From positions 496,001-560,000 of the forward strand of contig NZ_JAMTCJ010000003.1 in the NCBI RefSeq assembly GCF_024171815.1: a stretch of 64,000 nt of DNA, given 5' to 3'. A program made the position numbers and the translations under genes. Positions 4,585 to 51,704 of the stretch are shown here, piece by piece; position 1 is the stretch's first letter, and every line of letters begins with the position of its first letter. Origin of the DNA: Williamsia maris (GTDB lineage: Bacteria; Actinomycetota; Actinomycetes; Mycobacteriales; Mycobacteriaceae). A model generated the notes under the pieces. That model ran no database searches, was not told where the DNA came from, and saw only the letters and a program-made list of their open reading frames with translations.

Positions 4585-4668
4585 GTTGGGCCCTCGTTCT
4601 CGCGCGTTGGGCCGTCATGACGCAGTTCCCTGCGACAACGGCCCAACAGCGGCGAACGAGAGCCCAAC
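4585..4668. repeat. GTTGGGC array 1 (2 + 2 copies, 21-bp period, opposed arms)
   Basis: GTTGGGC occurs at 4585-4591 and 4606-4612, exactly 21 bp apart. The reverse complement GCCCAAC occurs at 4641-4647 and 4662-4668, again exactly 21 bp apart. Bases around the cores also pair (CTCGTTC near 4592 with GAACGAG near 4654), so the whole segment could fold as an imperfect long hairpin. It lies between the stop of the hypothetical gene at 4543 and the lipoprotein start at 4684. The same period and core recur near 42,809 and 51,002. Confidence 0.85.
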
Positions 4669-4683
4669 AGCGGAAATCGCGCG

Positions 4684-40420: not shown

Positions 40421-41545
40421 TCAACGGTAGGCGAGTTCGGAGATCTCCATCGCGATCCGGTGTCGGACCGGCGGCAGGCTCAGCCCGGCGCGGATGAGGG
40501 TGTTGCGGACGAACCGGGCGCCCCCGAGATCGACGGTGGCCGCACGGGTCATACGGTCGGTGAGCCGCAGCACCCGCCGGGCGACGGGGCGACGGAGGCG
40601 TTCGTAGGAGTCCGGGTCGCCGCCGTCGGCGAGGATACCGACGAGCGCGATCGCGTCCTGGATCCCGGTGTTCATGCCCTGACCGCCGGCCGGGGAGTGC
40701 ACGTGCGCGGCGTCGCCGACGAGGAACACCGCACCGCGACGATAGGTCTCGGCGAGTCGGTGGTGGATCCGAAAGCGCCCGCTCCACGCGACATCGCTGA
40801 CGTGGGCGCGGCCCGCGCGACGCCTCAGCAGTGACCCGATGTAGTCGGCATCGGGCTCGGTGGGCGGATCGTCGGCGGTGGCGACCACCCGGAACCGGTT
40901 GTCGGGCAACGGCGCGACCACCGCGAGTCCCTCGGGCGCGAAGGTCAACGAGACGGTGTCGCGGGGCACCGGCCACTCCATCGCGACGTCGGCGAGCACG
41001 AACGACTGCTCGTACCCGGTTCCGGGGAACCCGATCCCGACCGCATCGCGCACCGCGCTGTGCATGCCGTCGGCGCCGATGACGACGTCGGATCGGACCG
41101 TGCTGCGGCGCCCGGACGTGGTCACCACCTCCGCCCGACCGTCGGCGTCGAGACCCTCGAGTCGGGTCTTCCACTCGACGCCAACGCCCAGCTCGCCGAG
41201 ACGCTCGCGCAGGATCGTCTCGGTGTCGGCCTGCGAGATCATGGCGGTGAACGGGTAGTCGGTCGTCAGGCTCGAGAAGTCTAACTGTGCAATGGATCTG
41301 GATCCGTCGCGGATGTCGAACCTGGGGACGCGTACGGCGCGATCGAGGATCCGAGACGTCACCTCGATGTCCTCGAGCACCTCCAGGGTGCGCGGGTGCA
41401 CCACCGCCGCACGCGAGGTGTTGGCACCCTGCGCCGCCGCGTCGATCACCCGGACGTCGATGCCGCGCGAGGCGAGGGCCGCCGCGGCGGTCAGACCGGT
41501 CGGTCCCCCGCCGACCACCAGAACCGAGCTCGTCGAAGTCAACAT
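40421..41545 (-). CDS. FAD-dependent monooxygenase (PHBH/UbiH-type)
   Basis: A 374-residue aromatic-ring hydroxylase-type flavoprotein. The Rossmann GGGPTGL, the DG motif VIGADGMHSAVR and the GD motif FLVGDAAHVHSPAGGQGMN are all intact, giving a class A flavoprotein that uses NAD(P)H and O2. Its promoter is shared with a divergent TetR gene, and one of two perfect palindromic operators overlaps its start codon, so substrate-induced derepression is expected. The hydroxylated compound is unknown. Confidence 0.9.
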   Translation of the reverse strand: MLTSTSSVLVVGGGPTGLTAAAALASRGIDVRVIDAAAQGANTSRAAVVHPRTLEVLEDIEVTSRILDRAVRVPRFDIRDGSRSIAQLDFSSLTTDYPFTAMISQADTETILRERLGELGVGVEWKTRLEGLDADGRAEVVTTSGRRSTVRSDVVIGADGMHSAVRDAVGIGFPGTGYEQSFVLADVAMEWPVPRDTVSLTFAPEGLAVVAPLPDNRFRVVATADDPPTEPDADYIGSLLRRRAGRAHVSDVAWSGRFRIHHRLAETYRRGAVFLVGDAAHVHSPAGGQGMNTGIQDAIALVGILADGGDPDSYERLRRPVARRVLRLTDRMTRAATVDLGGARFVRNTLIRAGLSLPPVRHRIAMEISELAYR

Positions 41546-41553
41546 GCGTTGAC
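41538..41553. promoter_or_regulatory. TetR-family operator 1 (GTCAAC-N4-GTTGAC)
   Basis: The 16-bp sequence GTCAACATGCGTTGAC is a perfect palindrome in its two hexamer arms. It overlaps the start codon of the FAD monooxygenase (41545). The identical arms recur in operator 2. Confidence 0.85.
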
Positions 41554-41575
41554 TTTAACCCCGCCCGGTCGAGAG

Positions 41576-41591
41576 GTCAACGCTTGTTGAC
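41576..41591. promoter_or_regulatory. TetR-family operator 2 (GTCAAC-N4-GTTGAC)
   Basis: GTCAACGCTTGTTGAC, same arms as operator 1, centre 38 bp away. It ends two bases before the first TetR start codon (41594), so the regulator probably also represses itself. Confidence 0.85.
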
Positions 41592-41593
41592 AT

Positions 41594-42178
41594 ATGCTGA
41601 CCGGCATGACCGATCCCCTGCCCGGCGCCGATCCCGCGCGCAACGCGCCCCGCACGCGCGCGGCACTCGTGTCCGCGGCGCGGAAGCGTTTCGCCGACGA
41701 CGGTTTCGCGGCGACCACCGTGCGGGCCGTCGCCGCCGACGCGGGCGTGGACGCCGCCCTCGTGATGCGGTACTTCGGCAGCAAGCGCGGACTGTACGAG
41801 GCGGCGACCGAGGTCGACCTGCATCTGCCCGACTTCACCGCGGTCCCGCGGCGTCGGCTGGGTGCGGTGATCGTCGAGACCTTCCTGAACCGATGGGAGG
41901 GTCCGGAAGGGGAACCGCTGCGCGTCCTGCTCGCCTCCGCGGCCACCGAACCCACTGCGGCCGAGCAGATGCGGGCCATCTTCGCCGGGCAGGTACGCCC
42001 GGCGGTGACCGCCGCCGGCGCCGATCCGGACGTCCACATCGAGGTGATCGCTTCCACCCTCATCGGCATGGCGATGATGCGGTACGTCCTGCGCGTCCCC
42101 GATGTCGTCGCGCTCGGCCCGGCCGAGATCGTCGAGCGATTCGGCCCGGCCCTGCAGCGACAGCTGGTCCGGCGCTGA
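41594..42178 (+). CDS. TetR-family transcriptional regulator
   Basis: A 194-residue repressor with a TetR N-terminal helix-turn-helix, DDGFAATTVRAVAADAGVDAALVMRYFGSKRGLY, and a variable ligand-binding C-terminal domain containing FLNRWEG and TLIGMAMMRYVLR. Divergent to the FAD monooxygenase with two matching operators between, it is most probably its local, autoregulated repressor. Starts at 41594 or 41606 are possible; operator 2 would lie just before either. The C-terminal stop abuts the convergent hypothetical gene. Confidence 0.9.
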   Translation: MLTGMTDPLPGADPARNAPRTRAALVSAARKRFADDGFAATTVRAVAADAGVDAALVMRYFGSKRGLYEAATEVDLHLPDFTAVPRRRLGAVIVETFLNRWEGPEGEPLRVLLASAATEPTAAEQMRAIFAGQVRPAVTAAGADPDVHIEVIASTLIGMAMMRYVLRVPDVVALGPAEIVERFGPALQRQLVRR

Positions 42179-42730
42179 CTACAGCTCGGGACCGTCGGCT
42201 CGCAGGGAGTCGACCTCGTTCATGGCCTCGCGCAGCTTGCCCAACCACTCGTCGGTGTGGGTTCCCACCAGCTTGACCGACCACACCAGCGCGTCGGCAC
42301 GCGATCGGGCGACGCCGGCGTCGACGAGGGTGTCGAGGACCTGACGTTCAGGCTGGCGAAGACGCGTCATCACCGGGACGGCGATGTGCGTGAACAGGAT
42401 TCGTTCGACACCCACCTGCACTCCCCACGACACCTTGCGGGCGTACCGGGTCTGCGCCTCGTCGGCGATGATCATGCGCTGATCGCGGGTGTCCTCCCGG
42501 AATCGTGAGGCACGCCCCTGCGCCGCCGCACTGCCACCGTCGCCGGACGGCTCGGCGAGCGTCCCGATCACGGTGATCTCGTCACGGTCGACGATCACCT
42601 CGGGCTTGCCGTCGAACCATCCGTCGGGTAGGCGACCGACGAACCACGCCGAGGCATCGCCCGCGTCGGGCAGCTCGGCCTGCTGCCAGCCGCCGCGGCG
42701 TCCTCCACCGCGATTGTTCTCCTTCATCAT
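42179..42730 (-). CDS. Conserved actinobacterial protein with RHH-like segment
   Basis: A 183-residue protein found, as I recall, in many actinobacteria: WFVGRLPDGWFDGKPEVIVDRDEI, FREDTRDQRMIIADEAQ and a C-terminal VMTRLRQPERQVLDTLVDAGVARSRADALVW segment resembling a ribbon-helix-helix DNA-binding pattern. The N-terminal region is basic and Gly-rich. AAGGAG lies five bases before ATG 42730. Function unknown; the RHH resemblance suggests a possible regulator. Its upstream region holds the second GTTGGGC array. Confidence 0.68.
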   Translation of the reverse strand: MMKENNRGGGRRGGWQQAELPDAGDASAWFVGRLPDGWFDGKPEVIVDRDEITVIGTLAEPSGDGGSAAAQGRASRFREDTRDQRMIIADEAQTRYARKVSWGVQVGVERILFTHIAVPVMTRLRQPERQVLDTLVDAGVARSRADALVWSVKLVGTHTDEWLGKLREAMNEVDSLRADGPEL

Positions 42731-42808
42731 GCTCACTCCTTTGTCGGTGATTACATGATTACACGCTTACACAATGCAGCGGACGGACTTCGCTGACAGC
42801 AGACGCCA

Positions 42809-42923
42809 GTTGGGCACGTACTCGCATCGGTTGGGCACCGCTGACCGCTCGCTGCCCAACTGATGGTGTTAGGTGCCCAACTGGCGTGTTTACGTGCCCA
42901 ATTGGCGGTGTCACGTGCCCAAC
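42809..42923. repeat. GTTGGGC array 2 (2 inverted + 4 direct copies, 21-bp period)
   Basis: GTTGGGC lies at 42809-42815 and 42830-42836 (21 bp apart). GCCCAAC or GCCCAAT lies at 42854, 42875, 42896 and 42917, each 21 bp from the next. The last three copies are embedded in near-identical 16-bp units such as ACGTGCCCAACTGGCG (42913-42928), and the first inverted copy (42804-42819) is the exact reverse complement of that unit. The array fills most of the space between the hypothetical gene (start 42730) and the NUDIX gene (42982). Confidence 0.9.
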
Positions 42924-42981
42924 TGGCGGGGTGGACGACACAGGATCGGCGAGTGGGCAGCAGCCGAATACAGTCGGGCGC

Positions 42982-43449
42982 ATGCCCACACCTGACTTCA
43001 TCCTGGAACTTCGCGAGCACATCGGGCACGCGCCGCTGTGGTTGTCCGGGGTCACCGCGGTGGTCATCCGGGACGACGAGGTCCTGCTGGTACGCCGTTC
43101 CGACAACGGCGCGTGGACGCCGGTGACCGGCATCATCGACCCCGGCGAGGAGCCCGCCGTGGCGGCGACGCGGGAGGTCGCCGAGGAGGCCGGGTGCGTG
43201 GTGACGCCGCAGCGCCTGGTGTCGGTGCACGTCACACCGCCGGTCACCTACCCGAACGGCGATGTGTCGCAGTACCTCGACCTGACGTTCCGGATGACCT
43301 GGGTGTCGGGCGAACCCACGGTCAGCGACGACGAGAACAGCGAGTGCGGATGGTTCCCGCTCGACGATCTACCCGCGATGTCCGACGAGATGACCTATCG
43401 GATCGGCACGGCCGTCGACAACGAGCCGGAGGCTCGCTTCCGGACCTGA
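42982..43449 (+). CDS. NUDIX hydrolase
   Basis: A 155-residue NUDIX enzyme with the box GIIDPGEEPAVAATREVAEEAG at residues 50-71, preceded by LVRRSDNGAWTPV and followed by a strand-rich end. Substrates could be a nucleoside diphosphate derivative; the family is broad (ADP-ribose, NADH, dNTPs). ATG 42982 is used because upstream codons fall inside the repeat array. Its stop is four bases from the convergent mycolyltransferase stop. Confidence 0.87.
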   Translation: MPTPDFILELREHIGHAPLWLSGVTAVVIRDDEVLLVRRSDNGAWTPVTGIIDPGEEPAVAATREVAEEAGCVVTPQRLVSVHVTPPVTYPNGDVSQYLDLTFRMTWVSGEPTVSDDENSECGWFPLDDLPAMSDEMTYRIGTAVDNEPEARFRT

Positions 43450-43453
43450 CCGA

Positions 43454-44893
43454 TCAGGGAACCGGGACGCAGGTCGCGACCGCGGTCGGACCCGGCGCCG
43501 CGGCGGCCGTCGCGCACGGGACCGTCGAGCTTCCGGTGGCGGTGTCGGGCACCGCTGCCGCGCTCGGGGCCACCGACGCCGATGACGGCACCGACGGAGC
43601 GGTGGTCGATGCGGAGACGTCGGTGCTCGCGCCCGGTGTCGACGACGGCGTCGACTCGCTCGAACTCGACGGTGTCGAACTCGATGCGGCCGAACTCGAC
43701 GCGGCTGAGCTCGAGGGTGCGCCGGATTCGGTCGACGAGGTCGGCGTGGGCGATGCGCTCGACGACGACTCGGTCGTACCGATCTTGTTCGCGGCGAGCA
43801 CCACGGTCTTCGCGGTGACCGGCGGGGTCGCCTTCAGCGAGTCCAGCATGTTCTGTTTGCCCGCGGCGAGCGCGCGACCCCAGTTCTCCCAGGTGTGGCC
43901 GCCGTAGTTCGGGATGGTGACGACCGAGACGCCGGCCTGCGCGGCCTGCAGCTGAAGGAGCACCGTGGACACCGCGGACAGGGCCTCGAGCAGGATCGCG
44001 CTGATCTGGTCGGCCGGCTTGAGCTTGGCCATCTCCTGCGGGGAGAGGAACGCGTTGCCCGACGAGATGATCAGGACCTGACCGTTCTCCTTGAGCTTCG
44101 CGAGGTTCTGCGACGCATCGTTCTGCTGCCACTGCGCGCTGCCGGGAGCGCCCCACATGTTGATGATTCCGTTGGTGTAGTTCGAGACCATCGACTGCGT
44201 CGCGAAGACGCCGAGCGCGCCGAGCGGGTTGTTGGTCTGGTAGTACCCGGACATCGCCTGGACGACTTTGAACTGCTCGGGGTGCTTCTCGGCCAACGTC
44301 ACCGCGGGTCCGGCGGACATCGACAGCCCCACGATCGCGTTGCCGGACTTGGCGACACCGAAGTTCTGCTGCAGGAAGTCGGGCAGCTCCGAGGTGAGGA
44401 AGGTTTCCTGCTTGAAGTTGGTGTTCGCGCCGGCCGGGCCGTTCCAGTCGGTGTAGAACGACGACGCGCCGCCCACGGGCATGACCAGGGTGGTGTCGGA
44501 CTTGCCGTCGTAGACCTTCGCGGCCTGCACGTCGGTGGTCCAGGCGGAGCGGTCCTCGCGCGCACGCATGCCGTCGAGGAGGTAGACGCCCTGGGTGCTG
44601 CCGCTCGACGCACGGATCTGGACGATGATCGTCTTCCCCGAGGCCTTTGAGTAGACCTTGCAGTTCTGGACGTAGTTGCCCGACGAGTCCCAGGTGCAGC
44701 CCTTGCGGAGAACCTCGGGGTGCCCGGTCAGCGCCTGCGCCTTGTTGTCGGTGGTCAGCAGCGCGGTCAGCGCGAAGATGACGACGCTCACCGCGATGAT
44801 GATCGCCGCGGGTCGCACCACCGCGGGACGGAGCACCGCGGCGCTCCATCCGGTCGCCGGTGATCGGTTCTCGTCAACAACGGTCCAGCCCAT
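43454..44893 (-). CDS. Ag85-type mycolyltransferase with long Ser/Thr tail
   Basis: A 479-residue exported esterase-D/Ag85-family enzyme expected to transfer mycolates between trehalose monomycolate and arabinogalactan or trehalose. It has one N-terminal hydrophobic span (about 29-46, probable anchor), GVYLLDG, DWNGPAGA, the nucleophile motif GLSMSAG with Ser191, and GGHTWENW with His333. Residues about 372-450 are an extreme Ser/Ala/Thr/Pro-rich stretch ending in a Cys-containing tail, not usual in Ag85 and likely a cell-wall linker. Ag85 proteins are specific to mycolata, which fits the organism. The 40-bp repeat element lies upstream of it. Confidence 0.88.
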   Translation of the reverse strand: MGWTVVDENRSPATGWSAAVLRPAVVRPAAIIIAVSVVIFALTALLTTDNKAQALTGHPEVLRKGCTWDSSGNYVQNCKVYSKASGKTIIVQIRASSGSTQGVYLLDGMRAREDRSAWTTDVQAAKVYDGKSDTTLVMPVGGASSFYTDWNGPAGANTNFKQETFLTSELPDFLQQNFGVAKSGNAIVGLSMSAGPAVTLAEKHPEQFKVVQAMSGYYQTNNPLGALGVFATQSMVSNYTNGIINMWGAPGSAQWQQNDASQNLAKLKENGQVLIISSGNAFLSPQEMAKLKPADQISAILLEALSAVSTVLLQLQAAQAGVSVVTIPNYGGHTWENWGRALAAGKQNMLDSLKATPPVTAKTVVLAANKIGTTESSSSASPTPTSSTESGAPSSSAASSSAASSSTPSSSSESTPSSTPGASTDVSASTTAPSVPSSASVAPSAAAVPDTATGSSTVPCATAAAAPGPTAVATCVPVP

Positions 44894-50979: not shown

Positions 50980-51704
50980 GAGAAGACTCCGCTCTGAGCC
51001 GGTTGGGCCGTCGTATGCCCGGGTTGGGCCGTTGTTTCCGTCGGTTGGGCCGTTGTCGTCTGCTCTTCGTCGGCCCGGACCGACGCGAGCAGTACTGCCT
51101 TGGCCGCACGGACGTGCGACCGCATCACCGCGTCGGCCCACACCTCGTCACGAGCGCGCAGGGCGGCGATGAGTTCACGATGGTGTCCGGCGCTGCGGTG
51201 CAGGTCCTCGGGTGCGTACCGATGGAAGGTCCGCATCATCAACGGCAGCTGGATCACGGCGCTGAGCATCGAGGTGAGACGGGTGCTCGCCGAGGCGGCG
51301 CGAACGATCGCGTGGAACTCCATGTTGGCCGTGGCCACGAGTTCGAGGTCGTCGTCGCGGGCGGCGGCTTCCATGTGGTCGCAGAGATCGGTCATCTGAT
51401 CGAGCTGCTCGGTGGTGATCCGTGGGGCGGCGCGGCCGGCCGCCAGTGCCTCCAACGTCATGCGGAGGTCGTAGATCTCCTCGAGGTCGTCGGAGGTGAA
51501 CTGGTAGACGCGGGCACCGCGATGCGGCAGCACCTCGACGAGGCCTTCGACCTCCAGTTGCCGCAACGCCTCTCGCACCGGGGTGCGGCTGGCCTGGGCG
51601 ACCTCCGCGAGTTCCGACTCACCCAGCCGCGATCCCGGCGCATACCGACCGTCGAGAATGGCGGCTCGGATGTGGGAGTACACCCGGTCGACTGCACGTT
51701 CCAC
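50976..51704 (-). CDS. GntR-family (FadR/FCD) regulator with TTAQPxx repeat tail
   Basis: A 242-residue regulator: N-terminal wHTH (GSRLGESELAEVAQASRTPVREALRQLEVEGLVEV) and a C-terminal FCD ligand domain (EIYDLRMTLEALAAGRA, HHRELIAAL, MRSHV). The last ~30 residues consist of TTAQP separated by two residues, three times, encoded by the third GTTGGGC array. GTG 51704 is used because ACGGGG lies upstream; a TTG at 51734 would overlap the operator. It is the first gene of the leftward operon and is divergent from the HMGL gene with two operator copies between, so it most likely controls both. Confidence 0.88.
   Translation of the reverse strand: MERAVDRVYSHIRAAILDGRYAPGSRLGESELAEVAQASRTPVREALRQLEVEGLVEVLPHRGARVYQFTSDDLEEIYDLRMTLEALAAGRAAPRITTEQLDQMTDLCDHMEAAARDDDLELVATANMEFHAIVRAASASTRLTSMLSAVIQLPLMMRTFHRYAPEDLHRSAGHHRELIAALRARDEVWADAVMRSHVRAAKAVLLASVRADEEQTTTAQPTETTAQPGHTTAQPAQSGVFS
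51002..51050. repeat. GTTGGGC array 3 (three copies, 21-bp period, inside the GntR gene)
   Basis: GTTGGGC at 51002-51008, 51023-51029 and 51044-51050, each 21 bp apart, within the 3' end of the regulator gene, where each 21-bp unit encodes one TTAQPxx heptapeptide. No opposed copies are seen nearby. Core extension GTTGGGCCGT is shared with array 1. Confidence 0.9.

Follow-up and report, generated by a model that had tools for sequence, protein, structure and literature searches.

The array described here lies in a 64,000-nucleotide stretch of the Williamsia maris genome (hereafter the window), which a first-pass annotation had placed in Gordonia. It occupies positions 42809-42923, between a gene for a conserved hypothetical protein and a NUDIX gene, both of which read away from it with divergent start codons. 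The window holds three arrays, this one (family A), one that the first pass had called array 1 (family B type), and a third at 50999-51056 (family B). Their parts and the adjoining genes are given below, with weight-matrix (PWM) scores for the units of the window array.

4585-4670, no strand: array 1, family B type, cores 4591-, 4612-, 4641+ and 4662+; orthologous to G001 array L157
42179-42736, minus strand: left neighbour, conserved hypothetical protein; start codon faces the array; no Pfam family
42803-42816, minus strand: array unit 1, outermost left arm, TGCCCAACTGGCGT; PWM score 29.9
42824-42837, minus strand: array unit 2, inner left arm, TGCCCAACCGATGC, degenerate; PWM score 9.7
42838-42852, no strand: central segment between the arms, 15 bp; sequence absent from other loci, spacing in phase
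42853-42866, plus strand: array unit 3, inner right arm, TGCCCAACTGATGG; PWM score 18.6
42874-42887, plus strand: array unit 4, TGCCCAACTGGCGT; PWM score 28.7
42895-42908, plus strand: array unit 5, TGCCCAATTGGCGG; PWM score 27.1
42916-42929, plus strand: array unit 6, outermost right arm, TGCCCAACTGGCGG; PWM score 27.5
42947-42960, minus strand: likely relic unit of family C (GCCCACTCG-CG), common to it and the G001/G005 family-C array in a four-genome alignment
42982-43449, plus strand: right neighbour, NUDIX protein; start codon faces the array; PF00293, E 6.8e-20
50999-51056, minus strand: third window array, family B, three units; orthologous to G001 array L156

The six cores were found where the first-pass annotation had put them, with GTTGGGC at 42809 and 42830, GCCCAAC at 42854, 42875 and 42917, and GCCCAAT at 42896. 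Its 16-bp units were likewise borne out, positions 42804-42819 being the exact reverse complement of 42913-42928. The 21-bp period, which it had carried through both orientations, is kept within each arm and breaks across the centre, where an inverted core start is followed by a direct one after 24 bp, with a G-to-G gap of 18 between the facing cores. Allowing one mismatch, 11 core matches were counted against 3.26 expected, and none of 100 shuffles reached 11; no more than 2 cores shared such a span in any of 200 first-order Markov sequences of 64 kb, compared with six within 115 bp here. The window array of two inverted and four direct cores is real and far beyond chance. A search of 42700-43000 found no intrinsic terminators (GC-rich hairpin plus T run) and no sigma-70 promoters, and an Rfam scan of 41500-44500 gave no match.

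On the 5' side of the hypothetical gene, positions 42741-42785 carry repeated attaca words (gtgattacatgattacacgcttaca), near-identical in the window genome (G000) and in the relatives G001, G004 and G005. This stretch is perhaps a promoter or operator of that gene.

Motif families across the genus and the same site in relatives

The core pair of the window array was matched 111 times in its own 4.93-Mb genome with up to three mismatches, compared with 5 matches for the reversed pattern; those matches listed (100 of the 111) group into about 28 loci. With one mismatch, the pair was found in four of eight genomes of the genus versus none of 53 others. GTDB stretches with the paired core numbered 38, of which 30 are from Williamsia (W. 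herbipolensis ARP1, our G004, and a Williamsia MAG, our G005) and the remaining 8 are single matches in 8 unrelated records. A weight matrix gave TTACGTGCCCAACTGGCGG as the family-A unit. Units span 21 bp, with about 14-18 bp conserved, and the remainder varies and is often common within a locus.

Pairs of the TGCCCAAC core spaced 21 apart numbered 84, 61, 74, 24, 42, 12, 2 and 1 in the eight genus genomes. Outside the genus, 1-2 pairs were present in five of 293 other genomes of the family, and the reversed control was matched in four of 301. The 2 pairs in G007 and the 1 in G003 are thus at chance level for that core, the counts referring to TGCCCAAC and not to those genomes' own motifs; both genomes carry 21- or 22-bp arrays beside nuclease genes, mostly with other motifs. 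Families A, B and D differ in the tails of their units. Family B (GGCCCAAC) provided 38, 23, 22 and 1 pairs in G000, G001, G005 and G004, respectively, and family D (GCCCAACGAACGGYTCC) occurs in G002 and G006, with 97 and 48 TGCCCAAC pairs at one mismatch. Array 1, of which the first pass had regarded the window array as a longer and better-preserved version, does belong to the same class of arrays but to another motif family, with GCCCAAC after G or A.

Two further observations concern individual arrays. The array at 50999-51056 falls within the 3'-terminal part of a called ORF, whose translation would include it, and it is kept in G001 (L156:3091-3175). One motif family has a period of 22 bp instead of 21 bp (L213, L246 and L247).

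The hypothetical protein to the left of the window array was matched in seven of the eight genus genomes, its own counted, G003 being without a match. In G002, G006 and G007 its gene stands next to a different neighbour, with no array there. All three relatives that keep this gene pair carry an array at the site: neither a repeat-free version of the region nor an empty site bearing a target duplication was seen among them. As the first pass had anticipated for this intergenic region, the 21-bp period is kept and the copy number differs among relatives. G004 has four inverted and five direct units of family A, and G001 and G005 have three family-C units at 21 bp. In the four-genome alignment, the first two family-C positions of G001 and G005 line up in phase with the two units of the G000 left arm. 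The sequences suggest that a family-C array at this locus probably became the family-A array of G000 and G004.

A subfamily of nuclease-like genes flanked by arrays

In some arm pairs a distance of about 400-1300 bp separates the arms, and most of these intervals contain a gene. Ten enclosed genes were scanned first, and five of these encode MTES_1575/DUF559 proteins (L045, L101, L139, L177 and L131; 232-296 residues as called), the other five being DUF308, DUF11/CARDB, oxidoreductase, flavin reductase and YqeY genes. L158 holds a sixth enclosed MTES_1575/DUF559 gene. The six lie at family-A loci of G000, G001 and G004, family-B loci of G000 and G001, and a family-D locus of G002, each adjoining arrays of its own motif. 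Scores for MTES_1575 of about 26-38 bits are near or below the 38.2 cut-off, and DUF559 is above its own cut-off in two. Through these families the proteins have sequence homology to Vsr-like PD-(D/E)XK nucleases. They are also homologous to AbiEi: all 11 members of the subfamily profile match PADLOC AbiEi models (best E 1.1e-18), and the PF09407 match is weak in some enclosed proteins. The putative catalytic residues D221, K228, D234 and H239 are invariant across the 11 proteins. An AlphaFold model of the protein from two sequences had a pLDDT of 34, and a search of solved structures by sequence returned a single chance match (E 0.56).

A genus-wide Pfam search revealed 21- or 22-bp arrays, detected de novo by self-identity, beside members of this subfamily, some of them without the GCCCAAC core; other DUF559 paralogues in the genus had no array, except that L185 gave a 22-bp signal on one flank. 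The subfamily profile, built from 11 proteins chosen for their arrays, has relatives in 103 of 151 genomes of the family (E up to 1e-25). Arrays were present at all 20 fetched loci scoring at least 257 bits, and ten lower-scoring fetched loci (230-249 bits) had no array of 20-23 bp, the 257-bit cut-off being one seen after the fact and not predicted. In a flank test applied under one criterion, which covered 30 of the 33 genes listed as exceeding the cut-off, an array was found beside 30 of 30 subfamily genes, 26 of them on both sides. Under the same criterion 1 of 30 other DUF559/MTES_1575 genes was positive, on one side, and the background was 10 positives in 500 random window pieces. For subfamily genes outside the profile, 19 of 19 had arrays on both sides. 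In a protein tree, the Williamsia motif classes A, B, D and F form one group each, and C and E fall in two places.

The association extends to two further genera, where the units are GGCMCGGTCRRCGG and variants with the same outward sense. Using a pair motif picked from gene-adjacent arrays in those genera, we counted 96, 122, 49, 66 and 41 dispersed pairs (one mismatch) in five gene-bearing genomes in which the arrays beside the gene carry that motif. Three genomes without a high-scoring gene had 5, 0 and 0 pairs, the absence of the gene being uncertain because its presence was scored on 15 first-look candidates in most genomes; the reversed control gave 0 in all eight. Across 20 regions from three of these genomes, all eight adjacent arm pairs ran minus-plus and 23 of 29 arms faced a stop codon.

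Elsewhere, L161 (G280, genus g9) is another array of the same kind. In genus g11, a few arrays occur in genomes for which the search gave no high-scoring subfamily gene (L159 and L160 in G144, and G070), and these are possibly relics.

We consider it probable that the window array is one of many binding-site arrays of an AbiEi-/Vsr-like protein, in a system that resembles REP/RAYT and is made of unrelated parts.

Orientation, phasing and competing explanations

Layout was tabulated over the array regions and flanks of G000, G004, part of G001 and part of G002, at loci chosen for having arrays, with approximate gene calls from a purpose-built codon model. Adjacent arms ran minus-then-plus, and hence divergently, in 65 of 68 pairs (115 clusters). 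Inward arms, plus then minus, were seen at three loci, L168 and L171 in G002 and L159 in G144. The outer neighbouring gene ends towards the array at 158 of 183 arms, starts there at 22 and is missing at 3. Among the stop-facing arms, 120 of 158 are within 40 nt of the stop codon; the median distance from the core is 19 nt and the commonest 14 nt, at which the family-A unit sits right at the stop codon. With orthologous loci merged by hand and three loci from other genera set aside, convergent genes flank 37 of 47 two-armed sets; for one-armed arrays that separate tandem genes, the count is 12 sets turned towards the stop and 1 towards the start (p 0.003). The window array is an atypical member of its class, as its arms face two start codons; together with its G004 orthologue, it is the sole two-armed set with both arms towards start codons. 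Its position before a NUDIX gene, which the first pass had pointed out, is incidental, the majority of arms in the class facing stop codons.

This gene-end bias supports the main rival explanation, according to which the arrays are host 3'-end devices, acting when bound as polar roadblocks or insulators that halt transcription, or as absorbers of supercoiling, between convergent genes, with the nuclease secondary; selection for that function would determine where arrays lie and maintain them. The persistence of array positions among relatives, with the motif differing in place, would also suit such devices, as would the lack of an intrinsic terminator at the window array. They accord poorly, however, with the two start codons faced by the window array and its G004 orthologue, and with an array that forms an in-frame part of an ABC-transporter ORF in two genomes. 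Moreover, a similar gene-end bias is described for REPs in passages of PMC3733652, and loss of arms near promoters could produce the orientation bias. We regard host devices as an unlikely explanation of the arrays as a whole. A strict terminator reading was demoted by the ABC-transporter array and by the two start codons at the window array.

The in-frame array is of family A/C and lies at L044:3010-3160 in G000 and L119:2975-3075 in G001. It encodes a membrane-ATPase domain linker with peptide repeats such as PPVGHVH.

Facing inner-core gaps cluster at 8, 18, 28-29, 39-40 and 49. At 10.5 bp, the Rayleigh R was 0.88 (n = 52), or 0.86 when each locus set contributes a single value (n = 38); the gap p-values are not to be taken at face value because most gaps fall into two classes modulo 21 (8 and 18). 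The phasing is not fully independent evidence, since loss of a unit adds 21. Descent from two ancestral centres gives no easy account of these classes, as the centre sequences are unrelated. For the same reason, we rejected the idea that the arrays multiplied by copying a single central dyad. The first pass had also suggested that the opposed halves frame a protected central segment, an idea that the unrelated centres do not sustain; the recurrent feature is the helical spacing of the arms.

Its other suggestion, a cruciform, is right in that the window array can fold (133 nt as DNA, -40.2 kcal/mol, z -5.1 versus shuffles), but cruciform formation cannot be the general point, because 45 of 112 Williamsia clusters are one-armed. 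The same folding energy would favour an RNA-level element, in which the arms form a long hairpin that terminates or stabilises the transcript. That explanation is improbable given the one-armed clusters, the distance of about 400 to 1300 bp between some facing arms and the absence of an Rfam match at 41500-44500, and the 21-bp period and 10.5-bp phasing suit double-stranded DNA.

Ordinary mobile-element ends or tandem-repeat slippage, with no dedicated protein, would be compatible with orthologues that differ in copy number and with spacer sequence that is often common to the units of one locus. We find this highly improbable, however, as the arrays are tied to one protein subfamily with matching genome counts and show the same layout in other genera. 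In addition, the window array had no match in viral contigs, phages or plasmids, where the nuclease has weak DUF559 relatives in five plasmid records (26-34% identity) and one phage record (31%), and none in viral contigs. A local operator, at which an ordinary transcription factor would control the hypothetical gene or the NUDIX gene, would fit the divergent start codons and the position kept in G004, yet can scarcely be credited when the family-A unit recurs at about 28 loci (among the matches listed), mostly at stop codons, and G001 and G005 carry a different motif at the site.

Layering, proposed mechanism and known systems

The arrays, which we prefer to read as binding sites of the AbiEi-/Vsr-like protein, also have an internal order. 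Family-A units match their consensus at 11.6 of 14 positions when inner and 12.9 when outer (84 arms, Wilcoxon p 5e-9). Crude unit labelling identified 22 mixed-family arms in G000, G001 and G004. Going outward, the transition from C to A was seen 15 times versus 5 for A to C (four genomes, with crude labels that are unreliable for D/A in G002), and B to A 4 times versus 2 for A to B, with one array read twice (the L055 minus arm is L141); these counts are not independent because several loci are orthologous. A switch from B (inner) to A (outer) was seen in L042, L117 and L055, with 19-20 bp between the last B and the first A core. G000 and G001 have three subfamily genes each, with A, B and E arrays, and G003, G006 and G007 have one each, with C-type arrays; the inner units therefore resemble the remains of a lost family, and the outer units a living one. 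At some orthologous loci (sets 1, 27 and 28), the array is of family B in G000 or G001 and of family A in G004. Judged from these patterns, inner units look older and outer units younger, and so the arms seem to grow outward.

Units of 21-22 bp, facing pairs and ten-bp steps fit an AbiEi-type binder, and the protein likely binds the arrays. In the mechanism we propose, protein molecules would sit next to each other along one face of the helix, each on a unit that spans two helical turns, and a facing inner pair of sites would act as the seed. Growth would proceed at the outer ends, unit by unit, and end where coding sequence or selection halts it; such outward growth of the arms is supported by the layering. 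The Vsr-like domain might nick or cut at the last bound unit, followed by repair that slips by one unit; cutting by this domain is a guess. Upon a change of the resident family, old arrays would be overgrown or converted. That the whole forms a self-extending element, whose nuclease writes copies of its own site outward to leave extinct families inside and living ones outside, is a tentative proposal that we are inclined to doubt; if true, it would make the arrays a readable record of successive enzymes. A host gene-end function, as roadblock or insulator, may exist on top of the system. The combination of layered arrays with known enzyme families makes directional repeat growth, motif-protein co-evolution and any gene-end function testable.

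Among known systems, CRISPR arrays consist of near-identical repeats with unique spacers, which the present arrays do not match. For the TAACTGA sets of Beggiatoaceae, we know of no enclosed nuclease. Like the arrays here, these are short intergenic direct-repeat sets that are many per genome, with a different repeat, and a regulatory network and alternative RNA polymerase subunits are proposed for them in extracts of PMC4679880. Vsr-like DUF559 endonucleases such as VsrA belong to the same nuclease superfamily; extracts of the VsrA account link it to a cytosine methyltransferase and mismatch repair, and speak of no repeat arrays (PMC12907096).

AbiEi antitoxins, a related group of DNA-binding proteins, are described in part of PMC7319586 as binding inverted repeats of 23 bp, whose separation is 3 bp in Streptococcus agalactiae and 13 bp in the case of Rv2827c; these gaps resemble the 8, 18 and 28 seen here. 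Those operators are, in the same extracts, promoter sites of toxin-antitoxin genes (PMC7319586), whereas here there are many arrays and an added nuclease domain. Compared with the type IV toxin-antitoxin AbiE, the AbiEi-like protein is present but the AbiEii toxin is not: the 10 scanned neighbours of the six enclosed genes are transporters, metabolic enzymes and similar, and no toxin partner, DUF1814 (AbiEii) included, was found among them.

The closest parallel is REP/RAYT (REPtron, REPIN, BIME). As here, its repeats are dispersed between genes, at gene ends, in several families per genome, and a chromosomal enzyme gene is flanked by its own repeats, which are also dispersed elsewhere. Passages of PMC3733652 locate most REPs where convergent or tandem genes end, often no more than 20 bp from an ORF; they also describe RAYT genes that have GTAG repeats or long terminal inverted repeats on their flanks, and CGTC-type REPs that have no dedicated enzyme. 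The units of REP/RAYT are palindromes tagged with GTAG or CGTC, whereas here direct repeats with a period of 21 or 22 bp make up two arms that point in opposite directions. Inspection of the family-A unit TTACGTGCCCAACTGGCGG showed no GTAG/CGTC palindrome tag; some units of other genera contain CGTC on one strand, not as a palindrome tag, and folding of six unit consensuses yielded nothing stronger than short hairpins (0 to -4.4 kcal/mol). The enzyme of REP/RAYT is a tyrosine (HUH) transposase, and the one here an AbiEi-like and Vsr-like nuclease with MTES_1575/DUF559 matches. The arrays and their gene thus follow the logic of REP/RAYT and depart from it in two defining features. A search of open-licence PubMed Central papers found no account of such an array-nuclease system among the ranked matches listed, and the repeat arrays with their nuclease-like gene look like an undescribed kind of bacterial repeat-and-enzyme system. 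If our reading is true, it gives a role to one AbiEi/DUF559 protein subfamily and places a second, unrelated repeat-plus-enzyme system beside REP/RAYT.
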